Of a DNA stretch of 64,000 bases, positions 42,282 to 45,815 are shown piece by piece (position 1 is the first letter of the stretch; every line of letters begins with the position of its first letter). Origin of the DNA: Cryomorphaceae bacterium 1068 (GTDB lineage: Bacteria > Bacteroidota > Bacteroidia > Flavobacteriales_D > Cryomorphaceae). The stretch covers positions 1 to 64,000 of the forward strand of contig JAPVXR010000006.1 in the NCBI GenBank assembly GCA_027214385.1, written 5' to 3'. The notes below the pieces were generated by a model. It worked only from the letters and a program-made list of their open reading frames with translations. It searched no databases and had not been told where the DNA came from. The translations under genes were made by a program, and so were the position numbers.

Positions 42282-43373
42282 TTAGTCATCGTTCATCACA
42301 TGCTCTTGCTGCGTAATACTCTCGTCGTGGACGCTTTGTAAATAGGCTTGGATAAAGTTCTCGCTCAAACCGTGGCTCTTGGCATATTCTCTTCCCTTTT
42401 CCAAGATCGCATTCCACCTTGTTTTCTGAAGAATGGTCAGGTTGTTTTCCTTTTTGAACTTACCAATGTCTCTGGCCACTTTCATTCTGTTGTCCAAAAG
42501 ATTTAATAATTCATCGTCAATGTGATTGATCTTCTCACGCAGCATATCCAGCTCGGCGTGATCCGTCCCCTCATCAAATTGAGGCTCGCGCACCACGATG
42601 GCGTTGATCATGTCATTCAACGTTTCAGGCGTCACCTGCTGTGCCGCGTCGCTCCATGCATTGTCGGGATCGATGTGCGACTCGAGCATGAGTCCGTCGT
42701 AGTCCAGATCCATCGCCTTTTGGGAAATGTGGTACAGCAATTCTCTGCGTCCACCGATGTGACTCGGATCGCAGATCAGTGGCAAGTCGGGCATCTCGTT
42801 GCGGTAAGCTATGGCCAATTGCCACTGCGGACGGTTGCGGTAATGCGTCTCGCCGAGGTTGGAAAATCCACGGTGAATGGCTCCAACGCGCTTCAATCCC
42901 GATTGGATCAAACGCTCGGTAGAGCCAATCCACAGCGCCAGGTCGGCATTGATCGGATTCTTGATCAAAACGGGAATATCAACTCCCCGAAGTGCTTCAG
43001 CGATTTCCTGAACGGTAAAAGGATTGACGGTAGATCGCGCTCCGATCCACAGCATGTCGATATCGTGCTTCAGCGCCAGCTCCACGTGGGCGGCATTGGC
43101 CACCTCGATGGTTACGGGAAGTCCCGTTTCGGCCTTCACTCGCTGCATCCACGGCAGTCCGATCTCCCCTACTCCTTCGAAGGAACCGGGTCGCGTTCTG
43201 GGCTTCCAAATCCCCGCGCGGATGTAGTCCACCTTTCCCGTGGCGGCCAGCCTTTTGGCGGTTTCCAATGTCTGCTCTTCCGTCTCAGCGCTGCAGGGGC
43301 CGCTGATGAGTATCGGCCCGCGCCCCGTGGAAATCCACGATTGCAATTTTGTAGTTGTCTTTGTCCCTTCCAT
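42282..43373 (-). CDS. Bifunctional DAHP synthase / chorismate mutase (type II AroQ)
   Basis: The 363-residue protein has an N-terminal 3-deoxy-7-phosphoheptulonate synthase domain of the beta/KDO8P-like type: ISGPCSAETEEQ, RAGIWKPRTRPGSFEG, and CDPSHIGGRRELLYHIS with metal-binding His and Asp. The C-terminal AroQ-type chorismate mutase (about 275-355) begins LDMLREKINHIDDELLNLLDNRMKVA. It gives both the first step of the aromatic pathway and chorismate to prephenate, so it feeds prephenate dehydratase encoded in the same operon. It is separated by 15 bases from the upstream aminotransferase gene. Confidence 0.93.
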   Translation of the reverse strand: MEGTKTTTKLQSWISTGRGPILISGPCSAETEEQTLETAKRLAATGKVDYIRAGIWKPRTRPGSFEGVGEIGLPWMQRVKAETGLPVTIEVANAAHVELALKHDIDMLWIGARSTVNPFTVQEIAEALRGVDIPVLIKNPINADLALWIGSTERLIQSGLKRVGAIHRGFSNLGETHYRNRPQWQLAIAYRNEMPDLPLICDPSHIGGRRELLYHISQKAMDLDYDGLMLESHIDPDNAWSDAAQQVTPETLNDMINAIVVREPQFDEGTDHAELDMLREKINHIDDELLNLLDNRMKVARDIGKFKKENNLTILQKTRWNAILEKGREYAKSHGLSENFIQAYLQSVHDESITQQEHVMNDD

Positions 43374-43388
43374 ACGTTCTCAATTAAT

Positions 43389-44570
43389 CTATGTCAGTTG
43401 TATTTTGTTCGTTTCTATCGCCGCCAATACGCGCCGATGTGCTTCTTTAAATAGCTCTAGATCTCCGCACAAAGAGATTCTCAAATGCTTGGTTCCGTTT
43501 TCGCCAAAGATCATCCCCGGGGTGATGAATACTTTGGCTTGAGCCAAAACTTCTTCCGAATAGGCCTCAGCCGAAGCTTTAAAGGAAGGGATTTCTGCCC
43601 AGACGAATAAGCCCGCCGTGTCTGCCTCGTATTCGCAGCCCAGCAAAACCATTATTTTCTGCGCCCATTCCTTTCGCTTGGCGTATTCCTCGTTTAGCGC
43701 AGCAAACCAGTCTTCGCCCTGCTGTAAGGCGATCACCGCAGCTTCTTGCACGGCTTTAAACATGCCCGAGTCCATATTGCTCTTAAACTTCAACACGGCG
43801 TTGATGTATTCGGCATTGCCGGCAAGGCAGCCCACTCGCCAACCCGCCATATTGTAACACTTGCTCAGGGAGCTTAGTTCCAAGGCGTGTTTCATCGCTC
43901 CTTCCACTTCGAGGATGCTCAGCGGCTTCTCGTTCAGGATGAAGGCATATGGATTGTCGTGGCAGATCAGTATGTCGTGCGCTTTCGCGAAAGCGATCAA
44001 ATCCGCAAAGAAATCGAGATCGGCTTGCGCTCCCGTGGGCATATTGGGATAATTGATCCACATGATCTTCACGGCACTCAGGTCGCGCCGGGCCAATGCC
44101 TTCAGGTCGGGGCGCCAGTTCAAGTCTTGTTCGAGCGGATAGTAAACCGATTCGGCTCCTGCCAATTTCGTGGCCGAGGCGTAAGCGGGATAACCCGGAT
44201 CGGGCACCAATGCCTGATCGCCGGGGCCCAGGAAGGTCATGGCGATGTGCATGATTCCCTCTTTGGAACCGATCAGCGGAAGGATCTCCGTCTCGGGATT
44301 CACCTTTGCACGAAAGTGCTCGCGGTACCAATCGGCAAAGGCCACGCGCAAGGCGGGCAGCGAGCGGTACGACTGATACATATTGGCTTCGGGCTCGTGC
44401 ACGGCTTCCTTCAATCGCTCGATCACGGCGGCGGGAGGCAGCATATCGGGACTCCCGATTCCCAAGTTGATGACTTGGTCGCCCGCCTCGTTCATTCGGC
44501 GAATCTGAGCGAGCTTATCGGCAAAGTAGTAGGTGCCGATTCCATCCAAACGTTTGGCTGTTTCAATCAT
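43389..44570 (-). CDS. Class I/II aminotransferase of the phenylalanine operon
   Basis: The 393-residue fold-type I PLP enzyme has the PLP Lys in ELSSLSKCYNMAGWRVG and NYPNMPTGAQAD near the cofactor. The pattern is like LL-diaminopimelate/alanine-type aminotransferases (DapC/AlaC group), but position in the operon points to phenylpyruvate transamination to phenylalanine or a related aromatic step. Its ATG overlaps the end of prephenate dehydratase by 8 bases, indicating translational coupling. The region is GC-rich, producing long antisense frames. Confidence 0.92.
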   Translation of the reverse strand: MIETAKRLDGIGTYYFADKLAQIRRMNEAGDQVINLGIGSPDMLPPAAVIERLKEAVHEPEANMYQSYRSLPALRVAFADWYREHFRAKVNPETEILPLIGSKEGIMHIAMTFLGPGDQALVPDPGYPAYASATKLAGAESVYYPLEQDLNWRPDLKALARRDLSAVKIMWINYPNMPTGAQADLDFFADLIAFAKAHDILICHDNPYAFILNEKPLSILEVEGAMKHALELSSLSKCYNMAGWRVGCLAGNAEYINAVLKFKSNMDSGMFKAVQEAAVIALQQGEDWFAALNEEYAKRKEWAQKIMVLLGCEYEADTAGLFVWAEIPSFKASAEAYSEEVLAQAKVFITPGMIFGENGTKHLRISLCGDLELFKEAHRRVLAAIETNKIQLT

Positions 44571-45399
44571 CGATCTCGGCTTTTTTATAAGTTCCCAAAA
44601 CTTCCAGCGACTCGGTGCATTCCTTCAAATCGTCCATGCAGGCTTCAAATTCGCCCAAGTTGTCAAATTCCAAATCGAGGTGGAAGTAGTAGCGGTTCAG
44701 CTCTCCCAATACGGGGTACGACTGCAGCTTGCTCAGGTTGATGTCGTGGCGGCTTATGGCCTCCAGCACCTTGAGCAGTTTCCCGCGGCCGTCCACCACC
44801 GTGAGGTAGATCGAGGCTTTATTGACCTGCACGGGCGGCACGGGTTTCCCCTTGGCTTGCACGATAAAGAAGCGGGTATAATTGACTTTCGACGTCTCGA
44901 TACCCTCGGCCAGTATTTCCAGACCGTAGAGTTCTGCAGCTCGCCTTCCGGCAATGGCGGCAATGCCCGTAGTCCGGTTCTCGGCGATGCGTTTGGCGCT
45001 CAAAGCCGTATCCTCCGATTCGACCATCTTCATGGGCTTGTCGCGGAGGTACACCAGGCATTGGTTCAAAGCCATGGGGTGGGAAACCACTTCCTTGATC
45101 TGCTCCATGTTTTGCCCGGGCAAAGCCATAAGGTTGTGCCTGATGCGCAGGTACACCTCTCCCACTATCCTGAAACCGTGCTCGCGCAAGATGCGGTAAT
45201 TCTGCAACAGACTGCCCGCAATGGAGTTTTCGATGGCCATAATGGCGATGTGGTCGCTCGGGTGCTTGTCCAACTGAGCGGCAAGAATCGGGAAAGACTC
45301 GGCGGGAACGAACGCATGTCCGTTTTGGCCAAAGTACTTCAGCGCCGCCTCCTCGTGGAAGCAACCCAACTCTCCTTGTATGATGATTTTATCTCGCAT
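44563..45399 (-). CDS. pheA: Prephenate dehydratase with ACT domain
   Basis: The 278-residue protein is a monofunctional prephenate dehydratase. The catalytic domain (1-185) has the typical EDTALSAKRIAE and the NYTRFFIV motif containing the catalytic Thr-Arg-Phe. The ACT regulatory domain (about 190-270) has GKLLKVLEAISRHDINLSKLQSYP, where families with phenylalanine feedback carry the GALV and ESRP motifs. It converts prephenate to phenylpyruvate. This is the first structural gene of the operon, and its ATG is preceded directly by seven U residues of an attenuator. Confidence 0.95.
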   Translation of the reverse strand: MRDKIIIQGELGCFHEEAALKYFGQNGHAFVPAESFPILAAQLDKHPSDHIAIMAIENSIAGSLLQNYRILREHGFRIVGEVYLRIRHNLMALPGQNMEQIKEVVSHPMALNQCLVYLRDKPMKMVESEDTALSAKRIAENRTTGIAAIAGRRAAELYGLEILAEGIETSKVNYTRFFIVQAKGKPVPPVQVNKASIYLTVVDGRGKLLKVLEAISRHDINLSKLQSYPVLGELNRYYFHLDLEFDNLGEFEACMDDLKECTESLEVLGTYKKAEIDD

Positions 45400-45428
45400 A
45401 AAAAAAGAGTCCCTGTTTGTAAGGACTC
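45400..45428 (-). terminator. Intrinsic terminator/attenuator in front of pheA
   Basis: On the minus strand, GAGTCC (45428-45423) pairs with GGACTC (45412-45407) around a 10-base loop, with G-T pairs extending it. Seven T residues (45406-45400) follow and run straight into the pheA ATG (45399). A terminator directly abutting a start codon is not a normal operon end, so I read it as an attenuator. The 5' arm AGTCC can instead pair with GGGCT of 45463-45471, freeing the terminator. Confidence 0.82.
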
Positions 45429-45462
45429 CCGTATTTTTAATCAGTTGAATGATTCAAATAGC

Positions 45463-45471
45463 AGCCCCGTT
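45463..45471 (-). promoter_or_regulatory. Antiterminator segment (segment 2) of the pheA leader
   Basis: AACGGGGCT on the minus strand lies just after the leader stop codon. Its GGCT and AAC can pair with AGCC and GTT of leader codons 9-11 (45495-45501). Its GGGCT can alternatively pair with AGTCC of the terminator arm (one G-U). It therefore has the mutually exclusive pairings expected of segment 2 in a 1:2 / 2:3 / 3:4 attenuator. The pairing was found by eye. Confidence 0.55.
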
Positions 45472-45525
45472 CTATTGACTAAAATAGAAGCAGAAACGGC
45501 TATAAAAATTCGTTGGTTTACTCAT
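45472..45525 (-). CDS. Phenylalanine operon leader peptide (pheL-like)
   Basis: This 17-residue ORF, MSKPTNFYSRFCFYFSQ, has four Phe and two Tyr, including F-C-F-Y-F at residues 11-15, only 3 codons before the stop. It precedes pheA by 72 bases. It fits the classic leader of ribosome-mediated attenuation, where stalling at Phe codons when charged tRNA-Phe is scarce prevents the terminator at 45400-45428 from forming. The peptide itself need not be functional. The frame is open further upstream for 68 more codons, but the promoter candidate and the core pattern favour this ATG. Confidence 0.75.
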   Translation of the reverse strand: MSKPTNFYSRFCFYFSQ

Positions 45526-45545
45526 GTTTTGTTTTGACAAGTGGA

Positions 45546-45576
45546 TAAATGTAAATGATCCAAAAGGGATAACCAA
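45546..45576 (-). promoter_or_regulatory. Promoter candidate of the phenylalanine operon
   Basis: On the minus strand TTG (45576-45574) is followed after 20 bases by TACATTTA (45553-45546), one base from TAnnTTTG. The expected transcript start near 45538 would put the leader ATG (45525) about 13 bases into the RNA. The position and short leader agree with an attenuator-type transcript. Confidence 0.55.
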
Positions 45577-45699
45577 GACTTTATCTGCAGAATTAATGAA
45601 GTAAGTGTCAAAAAGACGCAACGGGGTATTGATTTGTGGAAAATCACTTAAATCGGATAGAGACCACTTTGACCAACTCATTCTTTGGCTAACTTCATG

Positions 45700-45720
45700 G
45701 AAGTAAAAACAGAAATGGCT
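45700..45720 (-). repeat. Second copy of the leader-peptide core
   Basis: On the minus strand these 21 bases encode SHFCFYF, matching SRFCFYF of the leader (45481-45501). Sixteen of 21 bases are the same, and four of the five differences are third-position synonymous changes. The copy sits in the same long open frame, 219 bases upstream. It may be a duplicated, older leader unit. Confidence 0.5.
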
Positions 45721-45815
45721 AACTTGCAACAGAGGTGAGACCTTATCCGAGACTCATAGAACCAAAGAACATTTGTTATTCTCAAGCACTAATTCCTCTG
45801 ATACAATTTCGACCA

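Follow-up and report, generated by a model that had tools for sequence, protein, structure and literature searches.

The stretch of DNA analysed here (the window, 64,000 nucleotides) carries on its minus strand a prephenate dehydratase gene, pheA (PF00800; 44563-45399), followed by genes for a class I/II aminotransferase (PF00155; 43389-44570), whose first 8 bases are also the last 8 of pheA, and for a DAHP synthase/chorismate mutase (PF00793 and PF01817; 42282-43373). A small open reading frame rich in Phe codons and a hairpin with a U tract lie just upstream of pheA, and the question they raise is whether a ribosome translating the small frame governs transcription of the operon. We consider it very likely that this region is a ribosome-mediated transcription attenuator of the pheA-aminotransferase-DAHP synthase/chorismate mutase operon, with ribosome stalling, termination and a response to Phe and Tyr as its predicted workings. 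We base this reading on the parts of the element, their conservation, the covariation of its segment 2 with segment 3 and its geometry, all observed directly. No minus-strand ORF of at least 80 aa is listed between 45525 and 48500 other than a frame of which the leader is the last part, so that no gene further upstream on the same strand is in view whose transcription this terminator might end. Rfam, searched over the whole window at gathering cut-offs, gave no match to any family, T-box, Phe_leader and Bacteroid-trp included.

Read on the minus strand, the region begins with a promoter-like site, TTG-N20-TACATTTA (45576-45546), with two mismatches to TTTG-N-TANNTTTG, which we take to be the Bacteroidota promoter consensus. 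This site would place the transcription start about 15 nt upstream of the leader ATG. The leader, MSKPTNFYSRFCFYFSQ followed by a stop codon (45525-45472), has 17 residues including four Phe and two Tyr, and leaders occupy the same place in relatives. It also forms the last part of a longer frame of 85 residues (45472-45729) with a possible TTG start at 45729; since the promoter-like site lies inside that longer frame, the ATG at 45525 is the likelier leader start. The putative stall codons, Phe11-Cys-Phe-Tyr-Phe15 (45481-45495), give the pattern F-x-F-Y-F common to the window and two relatives, L003 and L011. Directly 3' of the leader stop lies the G-rich segment 2 (45460-45471), the 5' side of the antiterminator, which includes AACGGGGCT at 45471-45463 and whose pairing core begins about 2 nt past the stop codon. 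The terminator hairpin GGGAGUCCUUACAAACAGGGACUC (45430-45407) follows, with segment 3 as its 5' arm (45421-45430) and segment 4 as its 3' arm (45406-45414), and the T7 stretch encoding its U7 tract (45400-45406) abuts the pheA ATG at 45399. The promoter-like site, the leader with its Phe and Tyr content, the segment after the leader and the terminator whose U tract ends at the start codon are all as the preliminary description had them.

By itself, the window is only suggestive of an attenuator. Folding of the 166-nt leader is somewhat stronger than that of its shuffles (z=-2.14; 6/200 as good), and the duplex of segment 2 with the terminator 5' arm (-11.3 kcal/mol) is marginal against shuffles (p=0.04). 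A candidate segment 1, codons 9-11 of the leader (45493-45501), pairs with segment 2 in the minimum-energy fold, but this 1:2 pairing is within chance (p=0.235). The positions 45463-45471 had been proposed to pair either with these codons or with the terminator arm; in the window the second pairing is marginal and the first is not above chance. The two-mismatch promoter match is within chance, and so is the number of terminator-like sites in the scanned 1.6-kb region (1 found, 2.2 expected in shuffles). The significance of the attenuator comes from the recurrence of leader and terminator in relatives, not from the statistics of the window, and it is the relatives that decide.

The pheA products of L003 (same genus), L011 and L013 (a Saprospiraceae MAG) are 61-76% identical in protein sequence to that of the window, and upstream of these genes we found the leaders MAMTIFTFDSDFSFYFIE, MRTQDFIYSVFSFYFIE and MKQYSFSNYFYFYYFSQE, respectively. 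The more distant L009, of the same family and with 43% identity, has the leader MNCWTPFFHTFYFSFSSE, and each of the four leaders is followed by a U-tract hairpin just 5' of pheA. Among the three closest, the F-Y-F end and the stop codon align, as do the CGG with which segment 2 opens and the AGUCCU of the arm, and the distances of segment 2 from the stop codon and from the aromatic run are equal in the window, L003 and L011. The partner of AGUCC is GGACU in the relatives and GGGCU in the window, an A-U pair having become G-U, and the pairing in the window lies one base further along segment 2 than the columns of the alignment would place it. Aromatic leaders with hairpins are also present at the order-level loci L006, L007 and L008; L005 has two Tyr-rich leader units on a tandem plan below the scan threshold, and at L004, also an order-level pheA locus, no aromatic leader with a hairpin was seen. 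The sequence TTTTATGC follows the T run in L003, L011 and L009, as in the window. The ATG after the T run shares the reading frame of pheA in L009 but not in L003 or L011, and pheA of L011 may start at a TTG.

We surveyed the class more widely, the class of the surveyed genomes being taken as Bacteroidia. PF00800 was found in 78/295 genomes, and the upstream regions of pheA from 76 of them were scanned, the genome of the window and G185 (a partial PDT match beginning at model position 44) being left out. The scan looked for an aromatic leader started by ATG and then a U-tract hairpin within 10-70 nt. It found both in 48/76 class loci and did not detect the full element in the other 28. The same scan gave 0/20 at pheA loci of other classes of the phylum (one from each family label, among the matches listed for the 258 of 296 genomes that had one), 0/228 in composition-shuffled upstream regions and 0/29 at hisG upstream regions, and a His version of the scan gave 23/29 at hisG vs 0/76 at pheA. 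Two of the loci not found were near misses: L021, with a leader and no T-run hairpin, and L043 (G329), with the strongly aromatic frame KYNFYYYFYFYY and a terminator but no ATG, about 200 bases 5' of the pheA match; this frame could be a leader that starts at some other codon, or one that has decayed. At a further class locus, a few hundred bases 5' of the pheA gene, a Flavo-1 RNA was matched (L027:478-555; RF01705, 78.6 bits).

For the quantitative comparisons we used 53 elements: the 48 class loci, the window, L003, L009, L011 and L013, with L010, a fragment, left out. L072, a tandem locus whose terminator was first placed 198 nt away, was omitted from the swap and 1:2, nascent-fold, spacer-shuffle and codon-profile tests (n=52). 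The distance from stop codon to hairpin is 21-53 nt in 52 of the 53 elements. In 35/53 elements the region 5' of the leader ATG contains TTTG-N18-21-TANNTTTG with no more than one mismatch (exact in 16), compared with 3% of composition shuffles; L003 and L011 each have one mismatch.

The pairing on which an attenuator would depend is that of segment 2 with segment 3. For each element we computed the pairing of the stretch from aromatic run to hairpin with the terminator 5' arm and set it against 200 dinucleotide shuffles, which gave p<=0.05 in 39/53 and p<=0.01 in 30/53 elements, with a mean energy of -14.8 kcal/mol vs -7.9 for the shuffles; 14/53 elements missed p<=0.05. Native pairs were also better than pairs swapped between families (-13.0 vs -8.9 kcal/mol; native below the swap mean in 48/52). 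When a single locus was taken per family label, the energies were -12.0 and -8.5 kcal/mol, native pairs were better in 18/21, and 0/5000 permutations were as low as native, where the 21 labels may be 20, a Saprospiraceae locus possibly sharing a family with another label. Since native pairs beat swapped pairs, segment 2 and segment 3 change together, and the arms do vary (GUCCCG, AAUCCU, GCCUC, GGGAGUUCUC and others). A leader ORF and compensating changes in relatives, which the preliminary description had proposed to look for, are thus both present.

Segment 2 starts 4-14 nt past the last Phe/Tyr codon of the run in 52/53 elements, whereas relative to the stop codon it may start anywhere from -35 to +4 in those 52. 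Given the footprint of a ribosome, this is expected if exposure beyond a stalled ribosome is what matters. The 1:2 pairing reached p<=0.05 in 23/52 elements, the window not among them. Of the 1:2 / 2:3 / 3:4 layout first proposed for the window, 2:3 and 3:4 recur across the class, and 1:2 in the window is indistinguishable from chance.

We folded the leaders with and without a ribosome. In nascent RNA, segment 3 paired upstream (mean probability at least 0.5) in 52/52 elements when the ribosome was stalled and in 0/52 when it stood at the stop codon; with shuffled spacers segment 3 still paired upstream in 36% of cases. In nascent RNA without a ribosome the antiterminator formed in 43/52 (0.45 in the window), so that this calculation does not show a 1:2 hairpin that forces termination when the leader goes untranslated. 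At equilibrium, with the terminator complete and the ribosome stalled, the terminator was favoured in 38/52 elements (window 0.90). For this reason we rejected equilibrium folding as proof of switching; only the nascent-RNA calculation told the stalled and stop-codon states apart. A terminator that wins at equilibrium despite the stalled ribosome implies that control must be kinetic, as enteric attenuation is also considered to be.

The attenuator would then be expected to work as follows. When charged tRNA-Phe, and probably charged tRNA-Tyr too, is scarce, the ribosome would stall on the F-C-F-Y-F codons and leave segment 2 just beyond it. Segment 2 could pair with segment 3 once the latter has been made and before segment 4 is, which would pre-empt the terminator and allow the operon to be transcribed. 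When Phe and Tyr are plentiful, the ribosome would reach the stop codon and cover segment 2, so that the 3:4 hairpin with its U7 tract would form and transcription would end just before the pheA start codon.

Control might instead be mainly translational, the hairpin by the pheA AUG hiding the initiation region until stalling exposes it, with termination secondary; the U tract of the window touches the AUG and leaves no room for a separate initiation region, as such an arrangement would have it. Across the class, however, the hairpin ends 19-104 nt 5' of the PDT match in 47/48 elements (199 nt in the exception), and the T run needed by an intrinsic terminator is present in every element, as the selection required, and we regard mainly translational control as unlikely. 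We give very little credence to the leader being an arrest peptide that answers a ligand or a general block of translation in place of charged tRNA: it would suit the conservation of aromatic character rather than of one amino acid, but the leaders are otherwise divergent and match the operon product, those of hisG being His-rich instead. A last alternative, in which the aromatic ORF has arisen by chance and the hairpin is a terminator either ordinary or accidental, would fit the unremarkable count of terminator-like sites in the 1.6-kb region and is scarcely credible, since it is already contradicted by the recurrence of leader plus terminator across the class (48/76 pheA loci vs 0/228 shuffles and 0/29 hisG regions).

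The attenuator had initially been described as sensing Phe. Phe-rich leaders do recur, but Tyr is nearly as constant: among leaders picked on Phe alone (81 loci), Tyr was also in the run of 48/50. The runs contain 145 Tyr, compared with 37 Ser, 10 Leu, 6 Cys, 5 Ile and 4 Val, the other one-step neighbours of Phe codons. Trp, considered as a third sensed amino acid, was rejected as too rare, at 9/48 aromatic runs and 2.5% of non-Phe residues. L023, L050, L057, L059 and L067, with fewer than three Phe in 12 residues, were left out of that residue count. Counted back from segment 2, codons 3-7 specify 83-98% aromatic residues (n=52), with Tyr commonest at the fourth codon (63%) and Phe at the third (58%) and fifth (63%). 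Segment 2 was looked for downstream of the aromatic run, which accounts in part for the sharp edge of this profile but not for the F-Y-F order. Since the leaders mix Phe with Tyr, both amino acids are probably sensed by the leaders of the class.

Some loci carry the element twice. Tandem aromatic leaders, each with its own hairpin, were found in 5/87 loci (L006, L066, L067, L072 and L089; 86 distinct loci, as L002 and L011 are the same contig), spread over four family labels. The 2:3 pairing reached p<=0.05 in 7/10 tandem units; one unit each in L006 (p=1.0), L066 (0.11) and L072 (0.315) missed it. A broader reading, to which we give about even chances, is that of a class-wide dual Phe/Tyr attenuator in which the Tyr codons are an equal part of the sensor, which would govern joint entry into Phe and Tyr synthesis and which in several lineages has been doubled in series, an arrangement that would multiply the response.

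The gene tyrA lies within the operon in 15/25 loci examined in fetched stretches of up to about 6 kb, these loci being the window, L003 (through L012, the same contig), L009, L011 and L013, together with 20 of the 48 class elements. Tyr codons do not track it, and the idea was dropped: the mean Tyr share of Phe plus Tyr is 0.41 with tyrA in the operon and 0.39 without. The operons of the window (42282-45399), L003 and L011 do not include tyrA. In the genome of the window it lies elsewhere, at C1:489481-489933, where an aromatic leader was sought and none was found.

A sister system exists for histidine. In the same genome, hisG (L110, C5, upstream of the match at 139344-139808, minus strand) is preceded by the His leader MRTHLHHHFTLLFDSEQR and then a strong terminator; no sister attenuator was seen at two chorismate-binding genes, ilvD or thrA of this genome. 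A small upstream ORF with at least three His within eight residues was present at 26/30 hisG loci, drawn from 30 of the 56 class genomes with hisG and with gene starts approximated; one of the 30, with a short upstream flank, was left out of the scan for leader and terminator (n=29).

Members of this class, which rank among the major bacteria of the gut and the sea, for the most part initiate translation without Shine-Dalgarno sequences, and their amino acid control is little described in the searchable literature. A recurrent, covarying phe attenuator with His leaders beside it suggests that transcription and translation are coupled tightly enough for attenuation in the class. The element is a candidate family for Rfam, and thanks to its mixed Phe/Tyr codons and tandem units, both dual sensing and cascaded attenuation could be tested in laboratory strains. 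In the open-licence literature we found no class-wide survey, covariation, mixed codons or tandem units for pheA. Lopatovskaya et al. (2010; doi 10.1134/S0026893310010164), cited in PMC4833913, may have predicted some of this.

This kind of attenuator is known, and this element or close kin has already been noticed. For Flavobacterium psychrophilum, PMC9723704 reports strong clues that attenuation by leader peptides operates upstream of amino acid operons, and lists pheA and hisG, the same genes as here, among 5' elements present in other Flavobacteriaceae genera and without an Rfam match. Given these clues, signs of such control in the phylum predate those in the window. The F. psychrophilum pheA element is likely the same as ours, which may account for a flavobacterial 5' element that this RNA-seq paper termed original and worth study. 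Leader-peptide-like sORFs are mentioned in B. thetaiotaomicron in a passage of PMC7366714. In 2010, PMC2965389 stated that no leader peptide systems were known outside Proteobacteria and Actinobacteria, and itself proposed some in Firmicutes. The two short leader ORFs of the Salmonella mgtCBR tandem attenuators (PMC3641672) resemble the arrangement of the five tandem pheA loci, with the difference that the gene is another and that both pheA leaders are rich in Phe and Tyr.

Against Rfam, we searched 18 of the loci. The Bacteroid-trp motif, which we take to be of leader-peptide type, belongs to a different operon and had no match in these loci at E up to 5. It is entered as a cis-regulatory RNA motif for Bacteroidetes in Table 1 of PMC2864571 (RF01692). 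Phe_leader (RF01859), the enterobacterial pheA leader, matched 5/18 loci below threshold, on the gene strand and over the element, the best match scoring 39.3 bits (E 0.0021) and the other four having E 0.094-2.7; its gathering cut-off of 55 bits was reached in none of the 18, and the window had no match. Because Thr_leader and Leu_leader match L034 and L041 as weakly, this likeness to Phe_leader is not specific.

The enteric pheA leader has a Phe-rich leader peptide, an antiterminator and a terminator before pheA, as does the element described here. To our knowledge the enteric Phe leader is without Tyr, whereas the leaders of this class mix Phe with Tyr, and the operon downstream of them adds DAHP synthase and often tyrA.
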